Positions 3,454-38,213 of a stretch of 38,582 nt of DNA are shown here, in pieces. Source of the DNA: Candidatus Methanoperedens sp. (lineage in GTDB: Archaea; Halobacteriota; Methanosarcinia; Methanosarcinales; Methanoperedenaceae); NCBI GenBank assembly GCA_027460615.1, contig JAPZAO010000186.1:1-38582 (forward strand), written 5' to 3'. The notes beneath the pieces were generated by a model, which made no database searches, was not told the DNA's origin, and worked only from the letters and a program-made list of their open reading frames with translations. Made by a program: the position numbers and the translations under genes. The stretch's first letter is position 1. Each line of letters opens with the position of its first letter.

Positions 3454-3454
3454 C

Positions 3455-4847: not shown

Positions 4848-4857
4848 TAATAGTGGC

Positions 4858-4916: not shown

Positions 4917-4917
4917 A

Positions 4918-5390: not shown

Positions 5391-5405
5391 AAGGAACCTG
5401 TCACG
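5380..5405. other. Junction between bacterial and archaeal DNA (probable chimera breakpoint)
   Basis: To the left, minus-strand coding for an acyl-CoA synthetase stays in frame up to about 5,385-5,390. To the right, plus-strand coding for a multiheme cytochrome starts abruptly at about 5,390-5,400. Both genes are cut mid-domain at the same point, with no insertion sequence, repeat or regulatory DNA between them. Confidence 0.7.
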
Positions 5406-7561: not shown

Positions 7562-7568
7562 GGTAAAT

Positions 7569-8027: not shown

Positions 8028-8031
8028 TAAG

Positions 8032-10718: not shown

Positions 10719-11386
10719 AATTTACTGGTAAATTTTTTAGATGGTGGCTCAAGCACGCCTCTCGCTACCTCTTCCGGCGGCGCAATCATAAGCGCGCCGA
10801 TATGCTTGCAAAACCGCCGCTATCGTGTGCGCGCTTGGCAGGGAGTTCAACACAAGCTACTTTCAACAAATCACATCGAAACAAAGATACCCATCAAAGA
10901 CACAACACAAAATACAGATTTAATTTTGAATCTATTGAGTACGATTATTATTTCGCTTCTTATCAAAAGATTTTTCTATGTTATTCACTACAAGAAAAAA
11001 ACAATCCCAAAACAGTGGCAAGAGGCATCTTTCTAATAAAAGCCATCCCTGGATTCTCGGATACTGTCAAGTCTTCGTCAGCCAAAAGGATAGCACTCTT
11101 TTCAAGAAGGCAAACACTACCGATATGATGATTTATATAATATTAACAACCGCAGACTTGATAGAGCCGCAATCCGTAACCAATTTTGCTGAAAAACTGA
11201 CATCTCATAAAACCCTGCATCTATAAATACATCCGCCCATCCTCCGAAATACACACCGAGTTGATTCAGAATAATACTCTTACCGAGAATCACCACCGTT
11301 CATCCCGGAGTTGATTGTTGATAGATAAGCAAAAAGTTTAAGTGAAGTAAAACTTAGAGTTGTATGGTTTAACAAGCTGGAGAGAA
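10719..11386. other. Gene-poor stretch at the left end of the integrated element
   Basis: No convincing gene is seen in these 668 bases. Short open frames exist (one continues from inside the tRNA to 11,036, another covers 10,978-11,226), but their translations match nothing recognised and composition shifts from GC-rich (about 10,740-10,850) to AT-rich. This is where an integrase remnant would be expected; any remnant is too decayed to identify. Confidence 0.5.
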
Positions 11387-15550: not shown

Positions 15551-18500
15551 GATCAATTGGGTAAATCCGTATATCAGAGATTATCGAAGCAATATCATCA
15601 GAGCAATAATTTTTTTGACAATATTATTATTGATCGGGAGAGCAAGTGCTACAACGCTTACCGTGGACGACAGCGGTGGATCTGATTATAGGAGAATTCA
15701 GGATGCAATTAATGCAGCGAGTGATGGGGATACCATTCTTGTTTACAGCGGTACATATTATGAGAATGTAAATGTTAGCAAACAATTGGTGCTGCGTGGA
15801 ATTGGAAAGCCTGTGGTGGACGCAGGTGGGGGTAGTTATGCTATAACTTTGAGCGCAGGAAAAAGCACGCTTGAGGGATTTACTGCTGTAAATGCTGGCA
15901 ACCTGAGTGAGAAAGAAAACAACCTGCGTGAGATTGAAAAGGAGTTAAAATCAGCACCTGAAGGATTTGTTATCAAACTGAAGAGCGCAACGGATGATGC
16001 AGGAATCATGGTGGAGTCAAACAACAATATAATCAGAAATAATACGATTTCGAACAATGAAGAGGGTATCCGCGTGATGGATTCCATCAACAACATAGTG
16101 AGTGACAATACAGCCATAAACAACTTCTTAGGCATCTATTTGTACTATTCCAAAAATAACACGGTGGGTGGCAACACGGTCTCAAATAATATGGGCAATG
16201 GCATCCATCTGTACTATTCCAATAACAACATCATTATAGGCAATTATGTGAGCAATGACAAAATCTCGATAGATGAGTCATCCAATTACAATATTCTCTA
16301 TCAAAACAACCTCGACAGCCATTCCTATGCCTCCGATTACGGCACCAATCAGTGGGATAACGGCATCAATATAGGTAATTACTGGAATTACTATACGGGT
16401 ACCGATGCTAACAACGACGGCATCGGCGACACACCTTACAATGTAAGCGGCGACACCAGAGCGCAGGACAGATACCCACTGATGGTTCCGTATATGGGGC
16501 AGACGCTTCAACTAACCCCTCTAGTCACAGACCCAGCTGAATCAGATGTTCATGTACATAAGGTGAACAAGTTATTCTTAATTAATCTTAGTTTAAATCA
16601 TAATCAACTCTATGATTTTGATACGCTGTGGACTCCAAACGTTTGGAGTGTAAAAAATTTAAATTATGTAATCTTTAAAATCTCTACACCATTAAATTTC
16701 ACGAAAATAGAGAACTATGAAGAATATCAAAACGGGTCAGAGGTTAGTTCTTCTATACAGTATACACATACAGGGAATGATTATGTATGGAATCTGTCAT
16801 TAGTCGATCGTATAGGTTCAAATATTGATTTGTATACCAACGAAATTAACCACACAAAGCCTTGGGCAGATCTGGCAATAATCAAAACTCAAGAAGGTAA
16901 CAATACAAGATTGAATATAACCTATATTCCTGCAATCCCTCTTGACTATAATCATTTAAGAATCAGAGCTGAACGGATTTTGTCTTATACATATCCAAAC
17001 AATCTATTTTCTGTGGCACTTGGTCAGAGCAGATTAGACTTTAGAAGTGATAACCCCATTCAAAACCAGGCATATAATTTTTCGGTTTTGGTAAATAATC
17101 CAGAGGAAGTTAATCTTTGGTTGGATAATTCATTTGATTGGGTTGAAGATCAACCATCAAATCATATCTCACTTCCAGTTAGTGGATTTGGAAGTATTAA
17201 TGTGAGTACAAATGTTCCAGTAAAATGGAATCATAGACCTGTGCAACCGCAGTATGTGCAGGATATAACCATCAATATGAGCGCGTCCACCCAAACTCCA
17301 ACATTTACTCCAAAATATTATTCAGAGCACCCCAAAAATGTTGAAGTAGATGGAGAAATAAATCTCAACAAAAATAATTTATCTTTTGGGGATACTCTGA
17401 ATATAAAGGCTAGAATTAAATTAATCGGCAGCGAAAAAATTTATGGGGCTCCTGTTTTAATACTTTGGAAAATGGAAAAAGAAAACTCAACTGTATCTAT
17501 GGCCGAGTGGCAGCTTACTGAAACTAATCAGGTTATTAAAGAGTTTAAAGATTATGAAGATTATAAATATTGGTGGATTCCACCAAGTAACGAATTTAAT
17601 TTTGATGTTAATTGGAAGTGGGAGAATCCAGAAATTTCCTCTGGTACATACCAAATCCAAGTAGCAATTTCAACCCTCCGTGTACCTAATTCTCCTGAAG
17701 GATGGTTACTTTCAGGGGATAGCCCAAATCCACGAGTTCAACTTAAGGGTGCATATAGTTGGATACCTATACCAACATCTGTTTCTCAAGGTTTGAGTTC
17801 TTATTCAGCAATAATTGGTACAATAATTACGGTGTTGGCAATTTTTCTCATCTTTCTAGCTGTTGTTTACTCTAACAGAATAAAGGATGAAAAACTCATT
17901 ATTCAACGAATTGATGAACTAATTGTCGGTGTAAAAACGAAAAAATTCGATAATAATGAACTAAGGGATAAATTAATTGAGATAAATAAAGAGCTATCAC
18001 ATAAAGAATCCTATGGTACCTCATATAAGGGTTATTTCTTTGCTGTTGCGCTTGTGCTGAGCGTGCTACTGCTGCTGGGATACCTGACGCTGGCACCGGA
18101 GGCTGAAGCGCCTATAAACATGAAATCAATCAACACGCCAGCTCTAACAATTAAAGCAACTCCAAATATAACACAGACTCCTACGGTCACTCCAACAACA
18201 ACTACAACTGCCACACCTGTAAGATTGAAAGTAGTAGAAGATGTATTCAATGGTGATGCATCCGCTGTTAATGAAGCAGGTCTGGAAATATTCGAAAATG
18301 GTTATTATTATGTTGTAGATTGGCAGGGAGATAAATATGTAGCTCTGAAAGGAAAGACAAACAAATTGGTAAAACTGATACTTGAGCAAAAAAACATCGA
18401 GAATAAAGTCCTTACGGTTGGCGAAACTTGGGATGTAGGTGGCGGCTGGACATTAACTGCTCAGGCAATTGATGCGAAAGCATCCCCAAGACAGGTATGG

Positions 18501-19820
18501 CTTGTTCTCAATTATAAAGGTGTCAAGAAAGACGATAGGGTAAGGGGTATGGGCAGCGTGTACACTTATGTCGAGAAGAGTATCGGGGGTGAGTCTGATG
18601 TGCCGCTGTTTGTAACATACATCGCCGATGTGTATGCTGGTGCGACAAGTGATATGGTTCAGCTTCGCTATACATGGGCGGTAGATACAACCATTATTCA
18701 GACCCCCAAGATTACTCCAACAGTTTCCCCGACACCCACTGCAGCTATTACTGAAACTCCCACACCTGAACATGCGGTTGTTGCTACACCGACTGGAAAA
18801 ATTGTTTATGGCAGGGTAGATTATAGAGAGTTTTCGGTTTCAAATCTACAAATATATACGGGCGATGCGATATCATGGAACAATTTTGACGAATACACTT
18901 CGTACACGATAGTGGAAATGGACCAAAAGTTGCCGAACATGACTTTGAGACCATATGGAAGGTTAACTTACGTATTCAATACCACTGGCAACTACAGATT
19001 CGGGCTATATTATCCCCTTATGAAAACAGGTCCACGTATCCAGAATATCACTGTAAGAGTTTCCCCTGCACCCATGATAACATCGATAACAGACCAAAAA
19101 ACCATCACCAACTCTATCGGCATGGAATTCGTGCAGATATCTGCGGGCGAGTTTGACATGGGTTCTAATGAAAGCGTGCTGGGCTTTGGAAAAAATGCGA
19201 GGGTGGAAACTTTTGCTGAAGGGCCCATACATCACGTAAAGATAGCAAATGCTTTCTACATGGACAAATATGAGGTCACTCAGAAGCAGTGGCGCGAGGT
19301 CATGGGAAATAATCCCTCTAATTTCAAGGGCGATAACTTACCTGTTGAAGAGGTATCATGGAATGATGCCCAGGAATTCATCAGAAAGCTCAATGAGAAA
19401 GAAGGCACGAACAAGTACCGCCTTCCTTCAGAGGCGGAATGGGAATATGCGGCGCGAGCAGGAACCACTACAAGATATTCCTTCGGCGATGATGAATCAA
19501 ATCTCGGCGATTATGCATGGTACGAGGCTCCCCCAAGCAGCGAAACCCACCATGAAGTAGGTCAGAAAAAGCCCAATCCATGGGGTTTATACGACATGCA
19601 CGGCAATGTCGGGGAATGGGTGCGGGATCTTTATTATGATAGCTACGACGGCGCACCCACAGACGGCAGTGCATGGGAAGAAAATGATGTCCCCGCCCGT
19701 GTCATTCGGAGCGGCGGCTGGGGTTGCGGCTCCGGGAACTGCCGGTCGGCGGCTCGCAGCGCCAACTACCCCGGCGACCGCAATCGCTACGTTGGCTTTC
19801 GCCTCCTGAGGGTTATGTAG
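15468..19820 (+). CDS. Giant multidomain surface protein: beta-helix, membrane segments, cupredoxin-like domain, C-terminal FGE/C-lectin domain (copy 1)
   Basis: Up to 1,450 residues. In order these are: a signal peptide (IIFLTILLLIGRASA, about 47-62); NosD-like right-handed beta-helix repeats (about 65-345, many NNxxxxN turns); a unique beta-rich part (about 350-620); a segment shared with copy 2 starting EVDGEINLNK (about 625-760); and two TM helices around a charged coiled segment (IKDEKLIIQRIDELI, about 785-880). Then come a Thr-rich linker, a DUF4352-like domain (about 925-1,065), a cupredoxin-like domain without obvious copper ligands (about 1,105-1,200), and an FGE-sulfatase/C-lectin domain (about 1,205-1,450; RLPSEAEWEYAARAG, WGLYDMHGNVGEW, GFRLL). 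No start codon follows the stop of the preceding gene before the signal peptide. The in-frame ATGs (15468, 15474) overlap that gene by about 80 bases, so the true start is unsure. Confidence 0.7.
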   Translation: MFMVWLEKAKILKKDCLKLLFIPFALNEINWVNPYIRDYRSNIIRAIIFLTILLLIGRASATTLTVDDSGGSDYRRIQDAINAASDGDTILVYSGTYYENVNVSKQLVLRGIGKPVVDAGGGSYAITLSAGKSTLEGFTAVNAGNLSEKENNLREIEKELKSAPEGFVIKLKSATDDAGIMVESNNNIIRNNTISNNEEGIRVMDSINNIVSDNTAINNFLGIYLYYSKNNTVGGNTVSNNMGNGIHLYYSNNNIIIGNYVSNDKISIDESSNYNILYQNNLDSHSYASDYGTNQWDNGINIGNYWNYYTGTDANNDGIGDTPYNVSGDTRAQDRYPLMVPYMGQTLQLTPLVTDPAESDVHVHKVNKLFLINLSLNHNQLYDFDTLWTPNVWSVKNLNYVIFKISTPLNFTKIENYEEYQNGSEVSSSIQYTHTGNDYVWNLSLVDRIGSNIDLYTNEINHTKPWADLAIIKTQEGNNTRLNITYIPAIPLDYNHLRIRAERILSYTYPNNLFSVALGQSRLDFRSDNPIQNQAYNFSVLVNNPEEVNLWLDNSFDWVEDQPSNHISLPVSGFGSINVSTNVPVKWNHRPVQPQYVQDITINMSASTQTPTFTPKYYSEHPKNVEVDGEINLNKNNLSFGDTLNIKARIKLIGSEKIYGAPVLILWKMEKENSTVSMAEWQLTETNQVIKEFKDYEDYKYWWIPPSNEFNFDVNWKWENPEISSGTYQIQVAISTLRVPNSPEGWLLSGDSPNPRVQLKGAYSWIPIPTSVSQGLSSYSAIIGTIITVLAIFLIFLAVVYSNRIKDEKLIIQRIDELIVGVKTKKFDNNELRDKLIEINKELSHKESYGTSYKGYFFAVALVLSVLLLLGYLTLAPEAEAPINMKSINTPALTIKATPNITQTPTVTPTTTTTATPVRLKVVEDVFNGDASAVNEAGLEIFENGYYYVVDWQGDKYVALKGKTNKLVKLILEQKNIENKVLTVGETWDVGGGWTLTAQAIDAKASPRQVWLVLNYKGVKKDDRVRGMGSVYTYVEKSIGGESDVPLFVTYIADVYAGATSDMVQLRYTWAVDTTIIQTPKITPTVSPTPTAAITETPTPEHAVVATPTGKIVYGRVDYREFSVSNLQIYTGDAISWNNFDEYTSYTIVEMDQKLPNMTLRPYGRLTYVFNTTGNYRFGLYYPLMKTGPRIQNITVRVSPAPMITSITDQKTITNSIGMEFVQISAGEFDMGSNESVLGFGKNARVETFAEGPIHHVKIANAFYMDKYEVTQKQWREVMGNNPSNFKGDNLPVEEVSWNDAQEFIRKLNEKEGTNKYRLPSEAEWEYAARAGTTTRYSFGDDESNLGDYAWYEAPPSSETHHEVGQKKPNPWGLYDMHGNVGEWVRDLYYDSYDGAPTDGSAWEENDVPARVIRSGGWGCGSGNCRSAARSANYPGDRNRYVGFRLLRVM
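19698..19809 (+). other. Candidate diversity-generating-retroelement variable region in copy 1
   Basis: The last ~37 codons of the FGE domain (RVIRSGGWG...CRSAARS...YVGFRLL) match the consensus layout of DGR variable repeats in C-lectin fold proteins: RV(L/I)RGGSW, NxRSAxR, GFR. The DNA is strikingly GC-rich compared with the rest of this AT-rich gene, as expected when template adenines in AAY codons have been replaced. No template repeat or reverse transcriptase is seen in this window, so the call is provisional. Confidence 0.5.
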
Positions 19821-19870
19821 CTACTTTCCGTTTTGTCCCTCTACTACAAACAAAACATATGCCTTAGCGA

Positions 19871-20002
19871 AGAAAGGATGAAAAACTAATTCAACGAATT
19901 GATAGGCTTATTAATGAATTAGATAATAACCTATATTTAAATAAAAATAAACTCAGGCAAGACTTGATTGAAATATCTCAAGAGTTAGATCAATTGGTTT
20001 AG
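19871..20002 (+). pseudogene. Remnant of the membrane-proximal segment shared by the two giant proteins
   Basis: These 43 codons encode RKDEKLIQRIDRLINELDNN followed by a charged helix and a TAG stop. They are clearly homologous to RKKDEKLIIQRIDELI...NNELRAKLIEINK in both giant proteins (just after their first TM). The remnant is preceded by an in-frame stop and lacks both the TM and the downstream domains. It lies between the two paralogs and is probably debris of a third copy or of the recombination that made the tandem pair. Confidence 0.65.
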
Positions 20003-20079
20003 TAACAATTCAAGCTCAATTACCTTGGATTGATAATCTTAATTGTGGTTGATATAGCATCTTGAAACGACAGGTAAAA

Positions 20080-23000
20080 ATGGTATCGAATAATAATATT
20101 TACAGAAGGCGCATTCTCAGAGCAATAATCATATTGGTAATATTTTTCCTTATAGGAGGTGCAAGTGCTGCAACGCTTACCGTGGACGACAGCGGCGGCG
20201 CTGATTATAAGCGAATTCAGGATGCAATTAATGCAGCGAGAGATGGGGATACCGTTCTTGTTTACAGCGGCACATATTATGAGAATGTCAATGTGAACAA
20301 AAAATTGGTGTTGCGTGGTATTGATAAAGGCGGTGGAAAGCCTGTGGTAGACGCAGGTGGGAATGGCTATGCTATAACTTTGAGAGCTGGAAATATCACG
20401 CTTGAAGGATTTGTGGCTGTAAATGCTGGCAACCTGCGTGAGCTTGCAAAAGAATTTAAATCCGCACAGGAAAGAGGTGTCGAAGGTGTCAAACTGAAGA
20501 ACGTACGGGGTGATGCGGGAATCAGGGTGGCATCAGACAACAATATAGTCAGAAATAATACGGCTTCGAACAGCGAAGAGGGTATCCGCGTGATGGATTC
20601 CATCAACAACATAGTGAGTGACAATACAGCTATAAACAACTACTTAGGCATCTATTTGCACTATTCCAAGAATAACATGGTGAGTGGCAATACAGTCTCA
20701 AATAACATGGCTAATGGCATCTATTTGTGGTATTCCAATAACAACGTCATTACAGGCAATTATGTGGGCAACGACGAAATCGTGATAGATGAGTCTTCCA
20801 ATTACAATATCCTTTATCAGAATAACCTCAACAATGCCAACGATCACGGCACTAATCAATGGGATAACGGCATCAATATAGGTAATTACTGGAGTGACTA
20901 TACAGGCACTGATGCCAACAACGATGGCATCGGCGACACACCTTACAATGTAAGCGGCAACCCCAAGACGCAGGACAGATATCCGCTGATGGCTCCGTAT
21001 ATGGGGCAGACGCCCCAGCTAATCCCAACAGCTTTACCATCACCAAATGTAGAAGTAGATGGGGGGGTAAATCGCAACAAAGAGAGTCTATCTTTTGGGG
21101 ATACTTTGAATATAAAGGCTAGAATTAAATTAATTGGCAGCGAAAAAATTTATGGGGCTCCTGTTTTAATACTTTGGAAAATAGAAAATGATCGCCCGAC
21201 TAAATCCATAGCCGAGTGGCAGCTTACTGAAACTAATCAGGTTATTAAAGAGTTTAAAGGTTATAATGATTATAAATATTGGTGGATTCCACCAAGTAAC
21301 GAATTTAATTTTGATGTTAATTGGAAGTGGGAGAATCAAGAAATTTCCTCTGGTACATACGAAATCCAAGTAGCAATTTCAACCCCCCGTGCATCTAATG
21401 AAGGATGGTTACTTTCAGGGAATGGCCCAAATCCACGAGTTCAACTTAAGGGTGCACCTATCTCGATACCGGCAGTTATGGCAATAGCATCTTCAGTATC
21501 GATAATAAGCGACCAAGACTACATGGAACAGCAATTTGTTTCAAACGGCGTTTTCTCATCAGGCCCGACAGATCTTATTTACAGGATGAGACTGGATATA
21601 AGACCAACATCTGGTAATTTCCAGGTTTCAAAGATTGTAATCTACAATACCACAACAATCGACATTAACAGGACGTACTATCAAATTGATGGCAAAACTA
21701 AGGGAAGAGGGACTATTTCCGTTTTTCCAAACCGCATAGAGTGGCAGGGACTTGCTGAAGCACCTGCATCAGAGTTTGAACTGGGAATACATGCTTCCAA
21801 TCCATACAGGCGCGATATTCCATTTTCATCAACGAGGTCAGTTTCCAAGGACATGTTGAGTGGAGAAGATAGGATCAATGTTTATTTCTCGGTAACTCCA
21901 TCTCAAAACCTGCGATCTCTTGATGTTTCAACTTACGCAGAAGATACGGATGAGATTTATTCACAACTTCTAAAAAATACTGCCACCAATGCCGAATATA
22001 TAGATAAGACAAGTTCGAACGAAGTGGAATGGAAGTTTGAAAATAGTGTTCCAGATAATACCTACACTGGTTCAGTTCAATTAAGAGCAACTCCTAAAAG
22101 TAGTGGAATTACGCGATATTGGCCGTACACTAGGATACAGGTTGACTATGGTAGCGGTTACACATATAAAAGCAGTGGTTTTGGAGCTAAGGTAGTTCGT
22201 TACACTGACACGGTAATTGGAGATGTTGAGATATACTTCGTAAACCCGGTAGAGTATAAGATTTCTTCAAATGGTAAAGGAGTTTATTACCAGCGTTACC
22301 GCCAGTATTCAGAAATAGTAACAAACGGTGAGCCACCTACTATAGAAATAGATGACAATTTCAAGCCTGGAACAAAAACAATCCCAGTAGGCACTACTGT
22401 AACCTGGATAAATAATGATCCAATTTCACATACTATTGTCAGCAACGAAGGAGTCTGGAGTTCTCCTCCACTTGAACAATATCGACCTTTCTCTTACACA
22501 TTCAACACACCAGGAACTTATGAGTATAGTTGCAATATTCATACATCAATGAAGGGAACGATTATTGTAACAAGCACGGGGGGCGTCATTGGAAGTATTT
22601 TGCCGTCAATATCGCCATCACTATTACCATTAAAATCACCATCAACATCACTACCGATATCACCATCGATAATTGGTACTATAATTACTGTGTTGGCGAT
22701 TTTTCTCATCTTTCTAGCTGTTGTTTACTCTGACAGAAAAAAGGATGAAAAACTCATTATTCAACGAATTGATGAACTAATTGTCCTTGTAAAAACCAAG
22801 AAACTCGATAATAATGAACTAAGGGCTAAATTAATTGAGATAAATAAATATCTATCACATAAAGAATCCTATGGTACCTCGTATAAGGGTTATTTCTTTG
22901 TTGTGGCTGTAGTGCTGGGTGCGCTGTTGTTGGGATACTGGATGTTTGCGCCGATCACTCAAACTTTTTCCGAGACACCTATAATTACATCGACGGCAGA

Positions 23001-24594
23001 TCATGTTTCGACCGAAACGCAAAAACATGCGGGCACAAATCCTAACCTTGATGCAGCAATCGTAAAAGTGAAATTTGACAGGGATAATGTTGTAGCCGGA
23101 GAAAAAGTTTTAGCAGAATTTGTGGTGGGAAATACAGGCTTAGAAAAAATCACCAATGAAACCGTTGAAATAAAAGCCAAAGTATTGACGCTTGATGATT
23201 TCCTTGCAAACCTGTATTTAAAAACCATGAGCTATGAAAAGAAAACAGGGACTTTTACAATGGGCTTTGATACGCCGATTGAGCCGGGAAAAAATAATCG
23301 CATTAGCGCAGTTTTCCGCACCGAGAAGGAAAGAAATGGCAGAAGCCTCGCCGGTACTTATGAGGTCACGACCACTCTATTTGTCAACGGGCAGTATGCA
23401 GATACAAAGGTGCTACCGATAACACTCCTATCAGGCACACCCAGAGAATTCACGCCTACTCCGGTACCCACCCCACCGCCGACTCCAACCCCCACACCTG
23501 CTCCTACGCCGACACCTACGCCAGAACCTGTGACTGTAGCCACACCCACAGGAAAGGTTGTTTGGGGAAGGGTACTAAATGGAAAGTTTCCAGTTACGAA
23601 TCTCCAGATAAACGCCGGCGACCAGGTAGTGTGGGACAACCCAGACGAGACCGTGTATACGATAGTCGAGATGAACAAAAAGATTTCCAATATAACCCTC
23701 CCGGATCTTGGAAAGGCAAAATACACTTTCAACACAACAGGAAGTTATAGATTCGGCTTATATTACAAATACATGAGTACCGCACCGAGCATCCAGAACA
23801 TCGCTGTAAAAGTTCCCAATGTTACTAAAACTGTTCCCCCAACACCCATAACCACACCAACCCCACAAAAAACTTTCGCCAACTCCATCGGCATGGAGTT
23901 CGTTTTGATACCTGCGGGCGAGTTTGATATGGGTTCGCCATCGAATGAAGCAGGCAGGTACGATAACGAAGGCCCAGTGCATCGTGTAATAATCTCAAAA
24001 ACTTTCTATATGGGCAAATATGAGGTTACTCAAAAGCAGTGGCGCGAGGTTATGGATACCAATCCTTCTGCTTTCAAAGGCGACAATCTGCCTGTTGGAA
24101 ATGTAGATTGGAATGATGTTCAGACTTTCATCAAAAAGCTTAACGAGAAAGAAGGTACAAACAAGTACAGCCTTCCCTCTGAAGCAGAATGGGAATATGC
24201 TGCTCGTGCTGGCACAACAACGAAGTATTCCTTTGGCGATGATGAATCAAAGCTCGGAGAGTATGCATGGTACTGGGGTAACTCAGGCTCTGAAACCCAT
24301 GAAGTAGGCCAGAAAAAGCCCAATCCATGGGGGTTGTACGACATGCACGGCAATGTCGGGGAGTGGGTGCAGGATAAATGGCATGATAATTATAACGGCG
24401 CGCCCACTAATGGCAGTGCGTGGGAAGTATATGGCTCTCGTCGGGTACTCCGGGGCAATAAGTATTTCTACTTTTCAGGATATGGTCATTCTCGGGACAA
24501 TAGCTGGGGTGCTTTTCGCTCTGCGTCTCGCCAAGACGAAGACGTTATCTTTCGCTTCGATGATCTCGGCTTTCGCCTCGTGAGGGATTTATAG
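20080..24594 (+). CDS. Giant multidomain surface protein with beta-helix, amicyanin-type cupredoxin, CARDB-like and C-terminal FGE/C-lectin domains (copy 2)
   Basis: About 1,504 residues from ATG 20080; an in-frame TTG at 20062 is an alternative. In order these are: a signal peptide ending GGASA; NosD-like beta-helix (about 30-315); the shared EVDGGVNRNK domain (about 325-460); a unique domain (about 465-745); and a type 1 copper domain (about 750-835) with ligand His in SHTIVS and the C-x2-H-x2-M loop SCNIHTSM, as in amicyanin/halocyanin. Two TMs enclose the same charged segment as copy 1 (about 865-975). A CARDB-like domain (about 990-1,115), a Pro/Thr minisatellite linker, a ligand-poor cupredoxin-like domain and the FGE/C-lectin domain (about 1,260-1,504) complete it. 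It is a tandem paralog of the preceding gene with a different middle, and was probably remodelled by domain exchange. Confidence 0.75.
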   Translation: MVSNNNIYRRRILRAIIILVIFFLIGGASAATLTVDDSGGADYKRIQDAINAARDGDTVLVYSGTYYENVNVNKKLVLRGIDKGGGKPVVDAGGNGYAITLRAGNITLEGFVAVNAGNLRELAKEFKSAQERGVEGVKLKNVRGDAGIRVASDNNIVRNNTASNSEEGIRVMDSINNIVSDNTAINNYLGIYLHYSKNNMVSGNTVSNNMANGIYLWYSNNNVITGNYVGNDEIVIDESSNYNILYQNNLNNANDHGTNQWDNGINIGNYWSDYTGTDANNDGIGDTPYNVSGNPKTQDRYPLMAPYMGQTPQLIPTALPSPNVEVDGGVNRNKESLSFGDTLNIKARIKLIGSEKIYGAPVLILWKIENDRPTKSIAEWQLTETNQVIKEFKGYNDYKYWWIPPSNEFNFDVNWKWENQEISSGTYEIQVAISTPRASNEGWLLSGNGPNPRVQLKGAPISIPAVMAIASSVSIISDQDYMEQQFVSNGVFSSGPTDLIYRMRLDIRPTSGNFQVSKIVIYNTTTIDINRTYYQIDGKTKGRGTISVFPNRIEWQGLAEAPASEFELGIHASNPYRRDIPFSSTRSVSKDMLSGEDRINVYFSVTPSQNLRSLDVSTYAEDTDEIYSQLLKNTATNAEYIDKTSSNEVEWKFENSVPDNTYTGSVQLRATPKSSGITRYWPYTRIQVDYGSGYTYKSSGFGAKVVRYTDTVIGDVEIYFVNPVEYKISSNGKGVYYQRYRQYSEIVTNGEPPTIEIDDNFKPGTKTIPVGTTVTWINNDPISHTIVSNEGVWSSPPLEQYRPFSYTFNTPGTYEYSCNIHTSMKGTIIVTSTGGVIGSILPSISPSLLPLKSPSTSLPISPSIIGTIITVLAIFLIFLAVVYSDRKKDEKLIIQRIDELIVLVKTKKLDNNELRAKLIEINKYLSHKESYGTSYKGYFFVVAVVLGALLLGYWMFAPITQTFSETPIITSTADHVSTETQKHAGTNPNLDAAIVKVKFDRDNVVAGEKVLAEFVVGNTGLEKITNETVEIKAKVLTLDDFLANLYLKTMSYEKKTGTFTMGFDTPIEPGKNNRISAVFRTEKERNGRSLAGTYEVTTTLFVNGQYADTKVLPITLLSGTPREFTPTPVPTPPPTPTPTPAPTPTPTPEPVTVATPTGKVVWGRVLNGKFPVTNLQINAGDQVVWDNPDETVYTIVEMNKKISNITLPDLGKAKYTFNTTGSYRFGLYYKYMSTAPSIQNIAVKVPNVTKTVPPTPITTPTPQKTFANSIGMEFVLIPAGEFDMGSPSNEAGRYDNEGPVHRVIISKTFYMGKYEVTQKQWREVMDTNPSAFKGDNLPVGNVDWNDVQTFIKKLNEKEGTNKYSLPSEAEWEYAARAGTTTKYSFGDDESKLGEYAWYWGNSGSETHEVGQKKPNPWGLYDMHGNVGEWVQDKWHDNYNGAPTNGSAWEVYGSRRVLRGNKYFYFSGYGHSRDNSWGAFRSASRQDEDVIFRFDDLGFRLVRDL
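23455..23532 (+). repeat. Pro/Thr minisatellite encoding a linker
   Basis: Short imperfect repeats of the CCNACNCC type encode alternating Pro-Thr (TPVPTPPPTPTPTPAPTPT). This is a flexible, probably O-glycosylated spacer between the CARDB-like and cupredoxin-like domains, and a likely site of length variation. Confidence 0.7.
24439..24585 (+). other. Candidate diversity-generating-retroelement variable region in copy 2
   Basis: The last ~48 codons (RRVLRGNKY...GAFRSASRQ...DLGFRLV) follow the same C-lectin variable-repeat plan as copy 1 but differ at almost all positions between the fixed anchors FRSASR and GFRLV, and are longer. Both genes then share the downstream motif ATGCCTT(A/G)GCGAAG about 40 bases after the stop (19,858-19,873 and 24,626-24,641), a position where DGR homing signals usually lie. 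Confidence 0.45.
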
Positions 24595-24655: not shown

Positions 24656-25687
24656 TCAGCCGCCAGCCATGTTTAATAACGATTCAATTTTTTTCTTAGC
24701 GCTCATTCTGTCTTTTTGCCTAATATCATCTTTGATTTCTTTTAACATATGCACAATATCTTCTTTAGTAGGAGAAAGTTCTATTCCGTCGACTTTCTCG
24801 TCAATTATAACATTTATATTTCCTTTTAAATTGGGATTATCTGAATTGTATATTATGAAGTTATAATTAAAATTGTAATTATAATTATAATGTAATCTAT
24901 TCAAAAAAAGCAGGGCTATCTCTATGCTCTTGGCCGCAAGCTTTATTGATTGATTTCCATCCAAACACATTTTTACTTTCTCTAATAAAGATGAGACATC
25001 AGTTCTAAGTTCAGTATTAGGTTCGTTAATGAAGTTAAATACAGCATCTATATCGTGTATTATTTTTTTATTATATTCTTTTATATCTTCATCTGCTTTA
25101 TTATAAAATCTTTTCAACGTTGTTGACAGATCAGATTTTGCATTATTTTCATGAACTTTGTATAAAAAATAGCATCTATCATATCTTTTTTTCGATATTT
25201 CACCTGGTTTTTTGTATATATTTAGCTTACTATTTTCTTTCTTCGCTATTAATTCATCAGTCCTACCATCATCGATTTCTAGGTTTACTTCGGATTTTTC
25301 ATCGTTAAGTCTTAGTGAAATATAATTTTTTCCAACAGATACTACAATGGTCTTACCGTTATCGATTTTGTCAATTTTTGCAGTTTTTACCAAACCAGTA
25401 CCGAATTTTTGTATTAGGAATTCTTTGAGTCTCCCACTATCGTTTCCTGGAACATCATCCCAGCTAAACAAATGCGGTTTTTCTGAATCATAATATGCAT
25501 GATGAATTATCTTTGTGTCATCTTTAGATTTATAGATTGCAAGATCTGGTAATTGCTGCATTTCTATTTTTATTCCAGATTCATCCAGTCTGTAACCCAT
25601 TTCTTTCAATGTTGTCTTTTCTTTACTATTCAAACGAGACAAAAGAGAACCAGTACTATCAATTATTATTAAAGACTCATCTATCAC
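24656..25687 (-). CDS. Soluble protein carrying the shared WDxPG module; last gene of the tubulin/GTPase operon
   Basis: This 343-residue protein has no TM or signal. It starts at GTG 25687, overlapping the stop of the upstream GTPase gene as GTGA, so it is translationally coupled. Residues 1-73 begin MIDESLIIIDSTGSLLSRL and may be a small alpha/beta domain. Residues 74-160 are the module common to all four operon proteins (FSWDDVPGND, then alternating strands ending KLNIYKK). Residues 160-260 are helical and charged, and a Tyr/Asn-rich stretch (YNYNYNFNYNF) lies near 275. The last helix (about 300-343) ends SLLNMAGG. No known family was recognised; it may be an adaptor for the other three products. 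Confidence 0.7.
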   Translation of the reverse strand: MIDESLIIIDSTGSLLSRLNSKEKTTLKEMGYRLDESGIKIEMQQLPDLAIYKSKDDTKIIHHAYYDSEKPHLFSWDDVPGNDSGRLKEFLIQKFGTGLVKTAKIDKIDNGKTIVVSVGKNYISLRLNDEKSEVNLEIDDGRTDELIAKKENSKLNIYKKPGEISKKRYDRCYFLYKVHENNAKSDLSTTLKRFYNKADEDIKEYNKKIIHDIDAVFNFINEPNTELRTDVSSLLEKVKMCLDGNQSIKLAAKSIEIALLFLNRLHYNYNYNFNYNFIIYNSDNPNLKGNINVIIDEKVDGIELSPTKEDIVHMLKEIKDDIRQKDRMSAKKKIESLLNMAGG

Positions 25688-27222
25688 TTACCAACCTCAT
25701 CCAGCACCGCATCATATCCAAAAATGATAAATCCAGTTTCGTTCCTTTCAGGAGCATTATTTTTTTCCAAAACCATAACTGGAAGTATGCCTTTAGACTC
25801 TCTTTCTATAGTTTTAAAATCTGGATCCTTTCTAATTTCGTTGAGTACACATTCTTTAAATTTTTCATAGTTTTCCCTAGAATTGCCACATTCACTCAAC
25901 TTATCGCATTTGGTCACGACAAAATAGTATGGTTTTTTTTGTCCGTTTTGTTCCAATACGTCCAATAATTCTTTATAAATATCAACAATATAATTATCAC
26001 TGAATATATACGGAAATTTCACAGTTAGTTCGCCAATTTTATCAATTTTTCCATCAATGTTTTTTAAGTAAACATCAACCTTATTATTGTTAAGATTTAG
26101 CGAAACAGATTTCTCATTATCAGATACATTTATAGTTTTGTCATTGCTTTTATTAATTTTAGTATTTCCTAAATCTAAACCATACTTCTCACTTAGAACG
26201 TCTTTGAGTCTTATGTTATCGTTTCCTGGAATTTCATCCCAACTAAACAAATACTTATCAGGGTCGATCAGAAATATCAACCTGCTTGCATTCTTTATTC
26301 CGTCAGCAACTAATCTAATTTGTACTATGGGCTTATTATCAATATTAATTAGGTTGTTGCCATTGAGAACATTTATAATATCTTTGATATTTGTGTCTAA
26401 TATGTCTCCTGCATAATCAATATCCATATCAACCTCCTTTGTAAAAATCCTCCCATGTATATATTTGAGACCGACTTGGTTCTCTACCTTAGTTGCATCT
26501 GGCCATTTTCCATGCAATTCTGTATAAATACCAGAAAGATTCTTGTTAGGATTACCAATAACCCTTTTTTTCTTTCTTGCTTCTTCATAAAGTGCAGCAG
26601 TAAATACTGTTTTCCCAGATTTTCTAGGTCCAACAATGAATAATTTACACTCACTTTCTGCATATACGGCAAACATATAAATAACCACACTAAATAACAA
26701 TGCAAGCAAAATGTAAATTATGGAAGCATTAACTTCCGACCTACCTGCAATATAGTTTAAAAGAGTGAGCCACACAATAGCACTGGAAACAATTGCAAGA
26801 ATCATCAGAGATGTTTTGCAATTGATGTAATCTTTTTCTTTTCTTCTGGTTATATGGCTAATAAAAGCACCTGCGATTAATCCACTGAAGAACATTAAAG
26901 GGCGAAGAATAACTATATAAGTATATGCAACAACGATAATTAAAGAAGCAAAAAGGATCATATAACTCTGTTTCCGCCTTGTCCAATCATAATACCCAGC
27001 AATTATAGCGATGCCGTAAAACAGACCAAAACAAAAAGTAAGAAAACTTAACCATAATTTCTTAATAACCATATAAAATGCACTTGTACTCATATATCCA
27101 AAATCTCGTGAGTCAGTAAACAAATTCTTTAGGCCAAAAGAAATTAATATAAGTAATGCACAGTATAATATAATAATATAATTATCATACTTTTTTTCCC
27201 ATAATTCTATTTTATTTAACAT
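25684..27222 (-). CDS. Membrane-anchored P-loop GTPase with the WDxPG module inserted in its G domain
   Basis: This is a 512-residue protein with about six hydrophobic helices in residues 15-185, then a cytoplasmic G domain. Walker A is GPRKSGKT at 198-205, a probable G3 DxxG is DYAG at 269-272, and G4 is TKCD at 437-440. Between the strand RLIFLID (about 314-320) and G4 lies the shared module (about 326-400, FSWDEIPGND...). The GTPase fold is thus apparently interrupted. AGGAGA sits a few bases before the ATG, and a 74-base AT-rich gap upstream may hold an internal promoter. The specificity motif argues for GTP. It is probably the membrane-bound switch or anchor of the tubulin-like protein encoded just upstream; that role is inferred from context. 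Confidence 0.75.
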   Translation of the reverse strand: MLNKIELWEKKYDNYIIILYCALLILISFGLKNLFTDSRDFGYMSTSAFYMVIKKLWLSFLTFCFGLFYGIAIIAGYYDWTRRKQSYMILFASLIIVVAYTYIVILRPLMFFSGLIAGAFISHITRRKEKDYINCKTSLMILAIVSSAIVWLTLLNYIAGRSEVNASIIYILLALLFSVVIYMFAVYAESECKLFIVGPRKSGKTVFTAALYEEARKKKRVIGNPNKNLSGIYTELHGKWPDATKVENQVGLKYIHGRIFTKEVDMDIDYAGDILDTNIKDIINVLNGNNLINIDNKPIVQIRLVADGIKNASRLIFLIDPDKYLFSWDEIPGNDNIRLKDVLSEKYGLDLGNTKINKSNDKTINVSDNEKSVSLNLNNNKVDVYLKNIDGKIDKIGELTVKFPYIFSDNYIVDIYKELLDVLEQNGQKKPYYFVVTKCDKLSECGNSRENYEKFKECVLNEIRKDPDFKTIERESKGILPVMVLEKNNAPERNETGFIIFGYDAVLDEVGK

Positions 27223-27296: not shown

Positions 27297-29861
27297 TCAC
27301 AAACTATTTTCTAAATTATCCAAATCTCCTTTTATCAGATGCAATATATCTTTCAATTTATTGAACACAAGAATATCTTTTGTTTGTTTATTACTGTCTT
27401 TCTGAAAAACGTCATTATTTATTAGTTTTTCAATATTAGAAGAAACATCTTTAATAAATTGTCTAATATTATTCTGGTATATGTTTAAATTATTTCCTTC
27501 AGTCTTCGCAATAAGTTTATCAGTTTTTTTGTCATCTATTCTTAGGTCAACCTTTGTATTGTTATTATTAAGCTGTAGCGAAATAGACTTTTTACTATCA
27601 TCAGTTGCTACTATAGTTTTATCATCGATTTTCCTAATATTAATTGATTTCCGAGCTAAACCATAACACTTATTTAGAAAGGATATGAGTTTTATGTTAT
27701 CGTTTCCCGGGATATCATTCCAGTTAAACAATAAATCACCCTCCATTCTTGCAACTATATTCCCCCTGAAAGGCTGGTTTATCCAAGCTAAAATATTTTT
27801 CTTTTCTTCCTCTAGATTTTTTTTATATTGATTTAATGTAGATAATACTCCCTTTAACTCAGTAATGATTTTTTCACTCTCTTTTTCTTCTATGAATCCC
27901 ATTATTTTACACACTTCTTGATCAATCTCAGCAAGAGTTATTGGAATTTTTAAAAATGGATCCTCACAATTATAATTCTCCCAGAAAGAAATCACTGTTT
28001 CAGTGCCTTCCTGATCTGTATTTCCTATTGATATACCTGTTAAATTTTCGAATGCGTTAGAATCCCCTAAGAACAAAGAGTGATGCATAGATAATATGGA
28101 GTGATTTTTGTTATATTCTTGTTCTAGAGTATCTATGTTTCTGAGAGCCCATGGATGCAATCCTATCCATAAATTATATAAATCGACTTTAAATTCTTCT
28201 CCATTTTTATAAGGAAACATTTGAGCTTTTTCAGCAATATCTCTTGTCAAATTGACTCGAGCATTAGCAAAATTGAGTTGATTTATATTGCCTATATTAT
28301 CCTCTGCCGTACAAAGTATAGAAAGTGCACATTTCATCTTTTGTTTAGTTATAAAATCCCGCTTTGACAGTTCCGCCCGAACATCTTGATCTGGTGCTCC
28401 AGGTGAATAATTATAATCAAGAAGAATTCTGGTGAGATCATTTAGATTTACAAATGGTCTTTGTACGGCGTCAAAGATAACCTCTGGTCTATTCAGAAAT
28501 TTATCGCCCATGGCTTGTTGAAAAGAAACAGGTAATCCTTTGTCCTTCAATAATTGTATTTCATGGTTACTTAGTGTAATAATTTCTCTATGATCTTTAC
28601 ACTCAGGTTTTAATATTTCTTTATGAAGTGTTTGTACATATGTATTACTTTCGTTATATATATCAACTAATACCTTCATCTGCTTCACGTGCTCTTCTAA
28701 CTTGCTTTTTAAACGTTCGATTTGTTCTTTAAGCGATTTTGCCAGAGTGTTATTGTTGTTCACATCATTAGAATTCTTCAAATCTCCCATACTCTTCTTA
28801 ACAACAGATAACTTTTCGTTTAAAGCTTCAATGTCTTCATGTATTTTAATATTCGAATAGTCATTTTTTTTCAGAGCTTCCTGAAGTTCATTTATCTTGC
28901 CCTTATTAATCAACAGATCTTTTAAAAAGTTTTCAATCACTTGAATATTCGTCTCCATCTTATAATAATCGTCTATTTTCTTTTTAGGGAACTCTGTTGA
29001 TTTGTAACCTATTGTTGAAAATGAATTGGTATTACGGCTCAGAAAATAAACCAAATCATTAAAATCGAACCACTTATTTTGATGGTCTGCATCATTTCCT
29101 TGAACATTAAGATCTCCTCCCATCCTAACAAGATCTGAAAGAAATTTGATTATTGTTTCTTCCAATGTATGATCTTGTAATTGTCCATTTCTATCATCTC
29201 TAGATGCAAGGGTTAACAAATGAAATGGATTAAAGTATCCATTTCTTTCATTATCTATCGATAAAAGAAAATTCAACTCTTTTAATGCGGCCATGGCATT
29301 TATTTTGCTCTCATCCGTATCATCTCTGGACGGAAGTATTCCAAAGCCAAATATTATTGTGCCGGGGAAGTTATTTCTCATCCATCTTTTTATATCAAGT
29401 GATAAATCAGGAATTAAACCCGAACCTGTCCCTCCCCCTAAAGCACAGAATATGACAATCAAAAATTGGTTAATGTCAGGATTTCTTTGTCGTAATTCGT
29501 TTACAATATTTATTAGTTTATTTTCAATACTCGTTTTATAAAAATCATAATAAGCTTTGCTAACGGCTCGGCGCGTTCCTACACCATTTAGAAACAAAGT
29601 TTGAGCTGTATTCTGTGTTATCCAAGCATGATCCGTGAAGTAAGCATCCGGAGGTTTTTCAAGAAAGAAATCTTCCTTTATTACATTGGGCTGTTTTATT
29701 TTACTCCATAATTCATCAAGATCGTTTTTATTACTATCTAAAAAAAGGAAGGCTTTTTTTCCGTCTATACCTCCATGTGAATCAAGATATTTAGCAAAAC
29801 TATTAACCATTTTGCACCCAACTTCTCCAAGACCAATTATTATCTGGTTTACCTCTGGCAT
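27297..29861 (-). CDS. Large tubulin/FtsZ-superfamily GTPase with coiled-coil extension and C-terminal WDxPG module
   Basis: The protein is 854 residues from ATG 29861, chosen for the GGAGTGA eight bases upstream (an in-frame TTG at 29885 is inside the preceding gene). The N-terminus IIIGLGEVGCKMVN is the first nucleotide-binding loop, and GGGTGSG at 142-148 is the tubulin/FtsZ signature. WFDFNDLVYF (about 264-273) resembles the T7 loop that completes GTP hydrolysis in the next subunit. Residues about 340-425 form a long coiled coil; a large helical region follows. The shared module occupies about 712-796 (FNWNDIPGND). This is more than twice the size of FtsZ or TubZ. It recalls the large FtsZ-like families proposed to act in membrane remodelling, rather than cell-division FtsZ. 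Confidence 0.8.
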   Translation of the reverse strand: MPEVNQIIIGLGEVGCKMVNSFAKYLDSHGGIDGKKAFLFLDSNKNDLDELWSKIKQPNVIKEDFFLEKPPDAYFTDHAWITQNTAQTLFLNGVGTRRAVSKAYYDFYKTSIENKLINIVNELRQRNPDINQFLIVIFCALGGGTGSGLIPDLSLDIKRWMRNNFPGTIIFGFGILPSRDDTDESKINAMAALKELNFLLSIDNERNGYFNPFHLLTLASRDDRNGQLQDHTLEETIIKFLSDLVRMGGDLNVQGNDADHQNKWFDFNDLVYFLSRNTNSFSTIGYKSTEFPKKKIDDYYKMETNIQVIENFLKDLLINKGKINELQEALKKNDYSNIKIHEDIEALNEKLSVVKKSMGDLKNSNDVNNNNTLAKSLKEQIERLKSKLEEHVKQMKVLVDIYNESNTYVQTLHKEILKPECKDHREIITLSNHEIQLLKDKGLPVSFQQAMGDKFLNRPEVIFDAVQRPFVNLNDLTRILLDYNYSPGAPDQDVRAELSKRDFITKQKMKCALSILCTAEDNIGNINQLNFANARVNLTRDIAEKAQMFPYKNGEEFKVDLYNLWIGLHPWALRNIDTLEQEYNKNHSILSMHHSLFLGDSNAFENLTGISIGNTDQEGTETVISFWENYNCEDPFLKIPITLAEIDQEVCKIMGFIEEKESEKIITELKGVLSTLNQYKKNLEEEKKNILAWINQPFRGNIVARMEGDLLFNWNDIPGNDNIKLISFLNKCYGLARKSINIRKIDDKTIVATDDSKKSISLQLNNNNTKVDLRIDDKKTDKLIAKTEGNNLNIYQNNIRQFIKDVSSNIEKLINNDVFQKDSNKQTKDILVFNKLKDILHLIKGDLDNLENSL

Positions 29862-29868
29862 TAAATAT

Positions 29869-30714
29869 TCACTCCAAAATATCAATTTTTTTTATATATA
29901 TTTTTAGTTTATCGTTATCCTTGTTATCCTTGATCGCTATCAATTTAGGAATCAATTCTTTATTACCGTCTTTTTTATTTTCTTTTTGTAAAATAACTTC
30001 ATTATTTTTAATTCGTAAAAAAAGTTTTTCATCATCATCAATCGTAACTTTTATTGTATCTTTTCCAGTTTTTACTATTATTGCAGTTTGTAATGAATGA
30101 ATATTATAGGTCCACTTCAGAAATTCTTTGAGCTTTTCTATTTCTTGAGGGCTTCCTGGAACATCGTCCCAGCAAAATTTTTCATCACAATACTCTTTTA
30201 TTTTTTTATCGGACTCTTCTTTTTTTTCATCCAGACTTTTTGAAATTTCGGAAAGTTCGTTTTCAATGTTTTGAAGATTATCTTTAATATCATTCTTCAA
30301 TATTTCTTGTCTTGCATCGTTTGCTCGGTAGTTTTCACTGTCCAAATGTCTTTTTGAAAAAAAACTACCTAACGTGCTCATCAGCCCAATAATAAGCAAA
30401 AAAAGAAAATCTGGTTGTGAATCTAAATCATACATCTCAAGCAACGTGAGCAAATAACCAAACAATCCAATCATAAAAATAATTATGCTTAAAACCATCA
30501 ATTGAAAAAAGCGATCTGATAAAGCTTTATTATTTTTAATCTCTTTTTCTTTCCTTTTCCCGGAACTCATAAATAATATTAGAATTGCAATCCCCAGTAA
30601 AAGAATTGCAAGAAACGACTCCTGAGTAATGATCTCATTGTAGTACAAGAAACCAGAAAAAATTGACAAGAGAACTCCTGCAATTAACCATCCAATAATT
30701 AATATGCTAGCCAA
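29869..30714 (-). CDS. Four-TM protein with coiled coil and C-terminal WDxPG module; first gene of the operon
   Basis: The product is 281 residues from TTG 30714. No in-frame ATG or GTG precedes the first TM, and an in-frame stop lies just upstream. Hydrophobic segments lie at about 4-24, 33-50, 71-90 and 99-120. A coiled coil (about 125-175, rich in Glu/Lys, with NIENELSEISKSLDEKKEE) follows, then the shared module from F180 (FCWDDVPGSP) to near the end, with an insert after the strand ILQKEN. It ends 7 bases before the tubulin-like gene. Layout suggests a membrane receptor or anchor that presents the coiled coil and module to the cytoplasm. No named family was recognised. Confidence 0.7.
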   Translation of the reverse strand: MASILIIGWLIAGVLLSIFSGFLYYNEIITQESFLAILLLGIAILILFMSSGKRKEKEIKNNKALSDRFFQLMVLSIIIFMIGLFGYLLTLLEMYDLDSQPDFLFLLIIGLMSTLGSFFSKRHLDSENYRANDARQEILKNDIKDNLQNIENELSEISKSLDEKKEESDKKIKEYCDEKFCWDDVPGSPQEIEKLKEFLKWTYNIHSLQTAIIVKTGKDTIKVTIDDDEKLFLRIKNNEVILQKENKKDGNKELIPKLIAIKDNKDNDKLKIYIKKIDILE

Positions 30715-35912: not shown

Positions 35913-38213
35913 ATGGTAACATTGCGGTATTCCATGAAATCCCAATCCCCCACCGCCCCGGTTTCGCCCTGGGGCCTGCTCTGGAAACTGGGCCTCAACG
36001 CTTACCTTTTGTCCGCGGCCGGGGTGGTCATGGCCCTGGCTTTTATCCAGTCCGCGCTGCGCCTGTCCCCGGCCCAATTGCTGGAGGGCTTGATCGCCCT
36101 GGTGCTATTCGGGATTCCCATGACCCTCATCAATTTTCTGAACGGCCTGGTTTTGATCCAGCCCATCTATCGTTTCCTGGACGACCTGAAACAGGGCAAC
36201 CCCCCCTCGCCTCCCCAGGCCATCGCCGTCCACCAAGCCGTGTTTCGCTTCGCTTTCGCCTGCTCGATCTTCTCCGCCGCGCTCTGGTATCTGGGCGCCG
36301 CCGGCATCGGCCTGTGGGCCTGGTTCCGCGCGGACCTGGACGCGCTCCAAAGCGTGGGCTTCATCATTGCCGGCGCCTCGATCGGCTCGCTCACCTCGGT
36401 CTTCAATTTCTTCTCGGTCCGGCGCACCCTGCGGCCGGTCCAGGTCTTGCTCCGGGAATACCTGCCGAGCGACGATCCCGGCCTGCTCGCCCGGCCCATC
36501 ATGTTCCGGCGAAAGATGGCTTTCAGTTTCACCTACCTGATCGTCTCGGTCCTGGCCAGCATGACCTTCGAGCTTTACTACTTCCAGCATTGGGCCTTGT
36601 TGGACCAGGGTCTGGAGGAGGCGCGAAAACTGGTAGCCCAGGCCAACCAGGACCAGCCGCCCGGCCAGCCGCCCGCGCTCGACACCCGGACCGGCTTCGG
36701 CTTCCGCGTCCGCCTGTTCGCCTGGGACGCGGCCGGCCAAGTCACCGCCCCGGACTTGATCCCCGCCGAGCTTGCCCGCCTGCGGCAATCGCGCTACCTG
36801 CTCGGCCGCCGGGCCGACGCCGAAGCGCACCCCCTGACCGCCCGGATGACCGGCTGGTTGCAACGCCTGGTGCTGGACCCGGACCATCACCTGACCCGGG
36901 TCGAGGGCCAAGCCCTGGACTACCTTTTGCCGGCACCGTCCCCGGACGGCCGCGGGATCGGCGCGGTGGTCGAGTTGCTGCCTTCCGCGAGTTCGCTCCG
37001 GCGATACCCGTCCGTGATCCGCCTCCTGATCAACTATCCCGGCAGCACCCTCGCGGCCTTCATCCTGTCTTGTCTCGCCTTCACCCTGATCCTGACCTAC
37101 CTCATCATCGGCGACGTGGCCGGCCCGCTCCGCCGCCTCCAGGCCACGGCCCGCGCGATCCGGGAGGGCGACCTCAACGCCCGCTGCCCGGTCGAGACCA
37201 ACGACGAGATCGGGCTTTTGATCCTGGATTTCAACCGCACGGCCGACCGCCTGGCGGCCAAGGTGAATGAGTCGGAGCAATTGGTGGCCGCGGTGCGGGA
37301 GGCCACCCGGCAACTGGGGAGCAACTCGGGCCGCATCGTCGAGATCGCCACCGATCAGGCCACCGGCGCCACCGAGCAGGCGGCCAGCATCCAGCAAGTC
37401 AGCTCGACTTCCGAGCAGATCGCCGCCACCCTCAAGCTCATCTCCGAAAACGCCCGCTCGGTCGAGCGCGTGGCCGGCCAGACCCTGGAAGCCTGCCGGC
37501 ACGGCAGCGAGGACATCGGGGCCATCGTCGCCGGCATGGACCGGTTGAATTCCCGGGTGCGGGAGATCGCCAACGAGATGCTTCGCCTGCAGGAGCACGC
37601 GCTCAAGATCGAGACCATCCTCGACCTGATCCGCGAGGTCTCCGAAAAGACCAACATGATCTCGCTCAACGCCTCGATCGAGGCGGCCGCGGCCGGGGAG
37701 GCCGGCCGGCGCTTCAGCATTATCGCCGGGGAGGTGCGCGAGCTGGCCGAGCAGATCGGGAGCTCGATCCGGGAGATCCAGGAGATGATCTCGCTCTTGC
37801 AGCAGGCCACCAACCGCGCCATCATGGTGACCGAGGAAGGCACCAAGCAGGTGGACCTGAGCCACCGGGTGGTGGGCCAGGTCGGCCGCTCCTTCCAGAA
37901 CCTGACCGCCCTGGCCGACGAGACCGCGAGCGCGGCCAAAGAAATCTCGCTCTCCTCCTCGCAGCAGACCTCGGCCGGGGAACACCTGGCCGCGACCATT
38001 GCCGAGATCAATGAAGTGGCGCGCAGCTTTGTCCAGAGCGCGCGCGAGATTGAATCGTCCACCCTGGAGCTTAACCGCCTGGCCGAGCACCTCCGCCAGA
38101 TGGTGGGGCAGGACGGGAACCAGGCCGGAGGCGCGCCGGACTTCGTGCCGCGCTTTTCCCCCAGCCCGGCTCGCAAGGAGGACTCCCATGACCAACAATC
38201 AACTCAGTCGTAA
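35913..38213 (+). CDS. Methyl-accepting chemotaxis protein with several membrane segments
   Basis: The product is 766 residues from ATG 35913 (a second ATG at 35934 is possible; neither has a clear ribosome binding site). The N-terminal half has about six hydrophobic segments, an unusual number: near 25-45, 55-75, 110-135, 145-165, 205-225, and a last one near 375-395. The last precedes a HAMP linker (IGDVAGPLRRLQATARAIREGD...). The signalling domain follows, with the hairpin tip EKTNMISLNASIEAA and GEVRELAEQI (about 575-605), which contacts CheA/CheW. It relays an unidentified stimulus to the chemotaxis kinase. A 26-base overlap links it to the next gene. The whole region is visibly GC-rich, unlike the archaeal block. 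Confidence 0.85.
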   Translation: MVTLRYSMKSQSPTAPVSPWGLLWKLGLNAYLLSAAGVVMALAFIQSALRLSPAQLLEGLIALVLFGIPMTLINFLNGLVLIQPIYRFLDDLKQGNPPSPPQAIAVHQAVFRFAFACSIFSAALWYLGAAGIGLWAWFRADLDALQSVGFIIAGASIGSLTSVFNFFSVRRTLRPVQVLLREYLPSDDPGLLARPIMFRRKMAFSFTYLIVSVLASMTFELYYFQHWALLDQGLEEARKLVAQANQDQPPGQPPALDTRTGFGFRVRLFAWDAAGQVTAPDLIPAELARLRQSRYLLGRRADAEAHPLTARMTGWLQRLVLDPDHHLTRVEGQALDYLLPAPSPDGRGIGAVVELLPSASSLRRYPSVIRLLINYPGSTLAAFILSCLAFTLILTYLIIGDVAGPLRRLQATARAIREGDLNARCPVETNDEIGLLILDFNRTADRLAAKVNESEQLVAAVREATRQLGSNSGRIVEIATDQATGATEQAASIQQVSSTSEQIAATLKLISENARSVERVAGQTLEACRHGSEDIGAIVAGMDRLNSRVREIANEMLRLQEHALKIETILDLIREVSEKTNMISLNASIEAAAAGEAGRRFSIIAGEVRELAEQIGSSIREIQEMISLLQQATNRAIMVTEEGTKQVDLSHRVVGQVGRSFQNLTALADETASAAKEISLSSSQQTSAGEHLAATIAEINEVARSFVQSAREIESSTLELNRLAEHLRQMVGQDGNQAGGAPDFVPRFSPSPARKEDSHDQQSTQS

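Follow-up and report, generated by a model that had tools for sequence, protein, structure and literature searches.

Copies of one MITE-like element encoding a protein module, very probably inserted in all four genes of an FtsZl1-type operon of Candidatus Methanoperedens

In this study, a 38,582-nt stretch of DNA from Candidatus Methanoperedens sp. (contig JAPZAO010000186.1, positions 1–38,582; hereafter the window) was analysed. The window very probably carries an operon of the FtsZl1 membrane-remodelling type, each of whose four genes has been invaded by copies of one MITE-like element. A stretch of about 86 residues (LFSWDxxPGND...LNIY), called the module here, was common to all four operon proteins. 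The element is 262 bp long, ends in a terminal inverted repeat (TIR) of ~14 bp (GTATWTGTTTAGCT) and duplicates 8 bp of its target. Since 262 + 8 = 270 nt is exactly 90 codons, a correctly phased insertion would preserve the frame, adding 270 nt with no frameshift and no stop. The single open frame of the element is predicted to form a compact alpha+beta domain with its first and last residues in strands; with both termini so placed, a host loop could take up the module while the host fold stays intact. Mobilisation would occur in trans by a putative transposase. In-frame copies may survive because hosts tolerate the domain and not because they benefit from it, and the module would then be a passenger in its hosts.

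The tubulin-like protein, its operon and its setting

The tubulin-like gene was correctly located at 27297–29861 in the initial annotation; its strand is minus (ATG at 29861, stop at 27297), and the plus strand across this interval is full of stops. The operon runs on the minus strand in the order P0004, P0001, P0002, P0003. Its proteins and the motifs of P0001 are as follows.

29869..30714 (minus): small TM protein P0004, 281 aa; 34% identical to the module-free 189-aa protein in the same place in genome G022
27297..29861 (minus): FtsZl1/Tubulin_2 protein P0001, 854 aa; identified by Pfam, Foldseek and orthologs in genomes G022 and G067
29418..29438 (minus): GTP-binding loop GGGTGSG of P0001, residues 142–148; invariant in 13 aligned homologs
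29049..29075 (minus): candidate T7 loop KWFDFNDLV of P0001, residues 263–271; kept in the two closest orthologs
25684..27222 (minus): TM P-loop GTPase P0002, 512 aa; full-length alignment with ten GTPases, which come from FtsZl1 loci or are relatives of such GTPases
24656..25687 (minus): third operon protein P0003, 343 aa; placed by gene order and alignment, with weak homology to other third proteins

Judged by its sequence, P0001 is a member of the known FtsZl1/Tubulin_2 family. The profile check for the tubulin superfamily was positive, with a score against Tubulin_2 (PF13809) of 67.4 bits (E 1.8e-18; cut-off 27) and a second Pfam match to Tubulin (PF00091, E 3.9e-11). The AlphaFold2 model of P0001 had useful confidence in the N-terminal ~220 residues only and was poor beyond; Foldseek on this model returned CetZ, TubZ and FtsZ at E ~1e-8. 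P0001 was the only Tubulin_2 match found in its genome, which holds seven other FtsZ/tubulin matches. Among 60 relatives, only the G022 protein was full-length (36% over 4–652), and a third protein of this type was found in G067. Beside the FtsZl1-type tubulin, both G022 (L048, 13985–16461) and G067 (L252, 11813–13027) encode one or two further small GGGTGSG proteins of 404–424 aa, which suggests multi-tubulin loci.

The GGGTGSG loop was found as annotated, at residues 142–148. The stretch WFDFNDLVYF (residues 264–273), proposed as the T7 loop, is a plausible match, and both GGGTGSG and KWFDxNDL are common to the P0001, G022 and G067 proteins. This region is modelled at a pLDDT of ~30, so that the T7 match is unproven. 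Since, in addition, the T6-H7 region of the FtsZl1 family is not confidently identifiable (Makarova & Koonin, PMC2875224), a catalytic T7 acid in P0001 is only plausible from the sequence. The second T7-like stretch (residues 466–475) exists, but it is not conserved in the orthologs. The long coiled coil of the initial annotation agrees with helices predicted at 293–417 and 638–739, at low confidence (pLDDT ~50 or less).

FtsZl1 operons include a P-loop GTPase, membrane-associated in archaea (Makarova & Koonin 2010, PMC2875224), and the protein plan is an FtsZ-like domain, a coiled coil and a helical C-terminus (PMC2875224). The window operon shares with these a GTPase domain with GGGTGSG, a TM P-loop GTPase and membrane proteins; the long coiled coil and helical C-terminus of P0001 are predicted at low confidence. 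As in other genomes with the family, FtsZ is also present. Loci in ten other Methanosarcinales genomes encode, in the gene order of the window, a small TM or secreted protein, a Tubulin_2 protein (~1050 aa), a TM GTPase with a GPxxSGKT-type P-loop and a third protein. The GTPases aligned with P0002 nearly all adjoin Tubulin_2 genes. A large FtsZ-like family of the membrane-remodelling type, preferred on first reading, was supported, as P0001 belongs to FtsZl1 and adjoins a TM GTPase in a pairing that recurs in these ten loci; the family itself has been proposed for membrane remodelling (Makarova & Koonin, PMC2875224). Its family and operon suggest that P0001, together with the membrane GTPase, most likely assembles into GTP-dependent filaments. 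The window operon differs from other FtsZl1 operons in the mobile module in all four genes. None of the four proteins had a Pfam match to a vWA domain or a protein kinase; genes for these are common neighbours in the family but not universal.

A segregation filament like TubZ or PhuZ, carried by a plasmid, a virus or another extrachromosomal element such as a Borg, is very unlikely. Borgs each encode one tubulin-like protein (PMC11208441), and the modelled fold of P0001 resembles TubZ. Against this, P0001 is a Tubulin_2 protein with an FtsZl1 operon, the operon of relatives is found on chromosomal contigs of large size (for example 3.05 and 4.56 Mb), and housekeeping genes (Dph2-like, NIF3-like, Elp3) flank the operon here. 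The earlier placement on a putative mobile element was thus not borne out: there is no demonstrable mobile element around the tubulin gene, and what moves is the module, a copy of which sits in each of the four genes, not the operon.

The contig is part of a 2.39-Mb MAG. Its GC content is 0.29–0.45 across most of its length, 0.67 at 36001–38000 of the window (chemotaxis receptor) and ~0.50–0.53 in 1–6000 (MFS transporter, solute-binding proteins); the contig may be chimeric towards its ends, or these may be foreign DNA. Three successive multiheme c-type cytochrome-like ORFs lie at 5243–8823; the first has MtrC/F-like and cytochrome c7 matches, and the others have CxCH-type haem motifs. At 15468–24594 there are two paralogs of ~1450–1510 aa, each with a NosD/beta-helix part and, at the C-terminus, an FGE-sulfatase-like domain that Pfam matched in the second paralog, adjoined by an RHS/YD-repeat protein at 11360–15550.

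Ends, target duplication and window copies of the element

The operon module of the initial annotation was recovered: the P0001 module is shared with the proteins of the three neighbouring genes. The copies and the best-preserved target duplication are as follows.

29896..30177 (minus): C-terminal module copy of P0004, diverged; HMM 54 bits; absent from the G022 ortholog
27477..27731 (minus): module copy in tubulin P0001, residues ~711–795; HMM 95 bits
26035..26250 (minus): module copy in GTPase P0002; HMM 77 bits; 3' end degenerate
25476..25483 (minus): upstream target duplication of the P0003 copy, GAAAAACC
25214..25475 (minus): module copy in P0003, best preserved in the window, a full 262-bp element GCATTTGTTTAGCT...AGCTAAATATATAC; HMM 126 bits
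25206..25213 (minus): downstream target duplication of the P0003 copy, AAAAAACC

The two duplications of the P0003 copy, GAAAAACC and AAAAAACC, match at 7/8 positions. The P0001 copy is old; its ends are recognisable and its target-site duplication (TSD) matches at only 4/8. In P0002 the module sits in the GTPase domain, flanked by the LIFLID strand and the TKCD motif, at a place where homologs lack any residues.

The modal length of the element was 262 bp. Aligned copies had conserved ends, GTATTTGTTTAGCTGGGA at the 5' side and GGTAAGCTAAACATATAC at the 3' side, beyond which conservation stopped. The ends (GTATWTGTTTAGCT, ~14 bp) form a 13/14 inverted repeat. They were compared with a coding null, in which codons were redrawn from host usage and the residues were kept. 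End matches were 9.05/13 observed against 7.00 ± 0.12 under the null, a figure that is not a tally of independent events because the copies share ancestry. For one ancestral copy, at least 12/13 end matches were reached at P 0.0018 under the coding null. The TIR alone is thus good but not overwhelming evidence, and the TSD carries the case. The end codons were strongly un-host-like (TTG, AGC, CTA, AAC, ATA, TAC). Overall, codons at the ends were not clearly more conserved than those of the interior (0.62 vs 0.60).

Immediately outside GTAT...ATAC, the flanking bases gave a direct duplication of 8 bp (z 13.7; 93 distinct sites), the best among the lengths and registers tried. It was perfect at 6 sites against 0.064 expected, and matched at ≥7/8 at 14 sites against 0.57 expected. 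The mean TSD match fell from 5.3 to 2.8 with element divergence. The element therefore shows the features of a MITE: it has TIRs and a TSD, is short and multicopy, and contains no transposase gene. An autonomous element or transposase with the same ends was not found in the four genomes searched for ends.

Comparison of orthologs pointed to gain of the module by individual hosts. Cdc48 is ~733 aa in most of the genus and ~822 aa in three genomes, where the module lies in the AAA lid region; the host sequence beside the insert also diverges. Patatin relatives run from RAVxID straight to YWDGLFSQNPP, and five genomes carry the module there. In at least three Methanoperedens genomes (L255, L256, L257), RNA polymerase A' has the module inside Rpb1 domain 1 and reaches 974 aa through this insertion. 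Copies nested in copies were found at L061, L058 and L127, and two copies in adjoining genes of one contig were 95.7% identical in DNA. In these comparisons, no insertion was seen to be polymorphic within a single species.

Hosts, fold and selection of the module

A module profile was built from 44 copies. The module was found in all 31 Methanoperedens genomes searched, with up to 29 copies per genome, in 78 of 185 genomes of the order, and elsewhere in the phylum. Named records included Methanoperedens, Methanothrix, Methanosarcina, ANME-1/Methanophagales and Altiarchaeales. Three matches, each on a contig shorter than 4 kb, came from bacteria-labelled records and may reflect misbinning. The module was not found in viral contigs, plasmids or phages. 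No internal stop occurred among the matches listed in the genus, order and phylum searches.

The hosts formed 82 unrelated clusters, and 93 of 105 full copies were flanked on both sides by at least 20 host residues. The hosts included RNA polymerase A', Cdc48, an RFC-like clamp loader, HsdR, a Cas3-like helicase and patatin, as well as signal-peptide peptidase, RadC, T2SSF, S-layer, multiheme cytochrome, ion channel and IS-type transposase proteins. Nearly every detected copy was in frame, young ones too, and there were a few short frames of 108–118 aa. No out-of-frame or antisense copy was detected by nhmmer in 0.48 Mb of loci, where such copies are under-sampled because the loci were picked by protein matches. 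In several genomes (L056, L057, L058, L059 and L050), adjoining genes are rich in module copies; a single protein of 1840 aa has as many as five copies or fragments.

The AlphaFold2 model of the module, built with the 44 copies, had a pLDDT of 92. It consists of a helix followed by antiparallel-type strands, with short strands at both ends. The module region had no match in Pfam or NCBIfam and no convincing sequence match in the PDB. Structure matches were weak and none reached E ≤ 0.001 (frataxin-like matches in Foldseek; a top VIA Z of 4.9, against actin capping protein), so that the module was not assigned to a known domain or fold.

The dN/dS of the module was mostly 0.15–0.5, and ~0.9 in two orthologous pairs. 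The module is therefore under constraint, presumably to fold, and this purifying selection is weaker than that on most hosts. In orthologous pairs the module usually changed faster than its host; in RNA polymerase, dN was 0.035 for the host and 0.28 for the module.

These results bear on whether the module might instead be an accessory domain that benefits its hosts through binding, regulation or tagging, that was distributed by ordinary domain shuffling or recombination, and through which the four operon proteins interact. Its dN/dS is below 1 in nearly all orthologous copies, all four operon proteins carry it, and insertion is almost always in frame, as expected of such a domain. It is nevertheless improbable: shuffling makes neither an 8-bp duplication nor an inverted repeat in excess of what coding requires, evolution is usually faster in the module than in its host, the hosts share nothing, and a motif scan of ten other FtsZl1 loci found no module. 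An operon-specific interaction domain was rejected as the main reading, since the module has 82 unrelated host clusters and was not seen in the other FtsZl1 loci; the operon-specific interaction that it hinted at probably does not exist.

A second alternative is that the module, like an intein or intervening sequence, is removed after translation or transcription and is absent from the mature protein. In the essential proteins RNA polymerase A' and Cdc48, the module does interrupt conserved domains. At 86 residues, with no recognisable intein or splicing motif, no Pfam match, a well-predicted stable fold and purifying selection, it gives this alternative hardly any credibility. Insertion of a mobile element whose product stays in the host protein is the preferred reading.

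Comparison with known coding elements

A transposon with a ready-folded domain that keeps the frame would offer a route for new domains into existing, even essential, proteins. Dozens of hosts have insert-free relatives, so that the effect of sudden domain insertion is directly testable. For annotation, the element is a warning that a shared 'domain' need not mean a shared function.

We tentatively propose, at slightly less than an even chance, a class of 'protein-resident' transposons. Their sole cargo would be a self-folding domain, their length plus TSD would amount to whole codons, they would reside in proteins, even RNA polymerase and Cdc48, across archaeal phyla, and their targeting possibly favours in-frame sense insertion. 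In-frame coding elements are already known from Rickettsia, Wolbachia and Methanocaldococcus (PMC10969869, PMC2996958); new here is a domain that is predicted to fold, is bounded by defined transposon ends and occurs in different archaeal phyla. No description of the element in Methanoperedens was found in the openly accessible literature, and no record of the insertions in RNA polymerase A', Cdc48, Cas3 and RFC-like proteins was found in the literature searched.

The Rickettsia palindromic elements (RPEs) of Ogata et al. are palindromes of ~150 bp that add short peptides (PMC10969869, PMC2996958). Like them and their Wolbachia equivalents, the element is multicopy mobile DNA that enters unrelated, even essential, genes in frame and adds a conserved peptide. 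It differs from RPEs in being archaeal and 262 bp long, in having an inverted repeat at its ends only, in its 8-bp TSD and in encoding a domain of 86 residues that is predicted to fold alone. An RPE-type palindrome over the whole element was rejected, since the consensus folded no better than shuffles (z −1.07) and the ends alone pair. The palindromic coding elements of Methanocaldococcus jannaschii (FEBS Lett 2005, cited in PMC2996958) are, by their description in the citing paper, likewise archaeal repetitive DNA with coding potential inside genes. PARCELs (PMC2996958) also have coding capacity, show dyad symmetry in their DNA and spread from one protein to another. They are tandem 25-residue repeats, unreported from archaea in that paper, whereas the module is one globular domain. 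Prokaryotic MITEs (PMC10969869) are, like the element, short, non-autonomous and multicopy, with TIRs and target duplication. They form ORF fusions occasionally, whereas almost every detected copy of this element is a long in-frame fusion.
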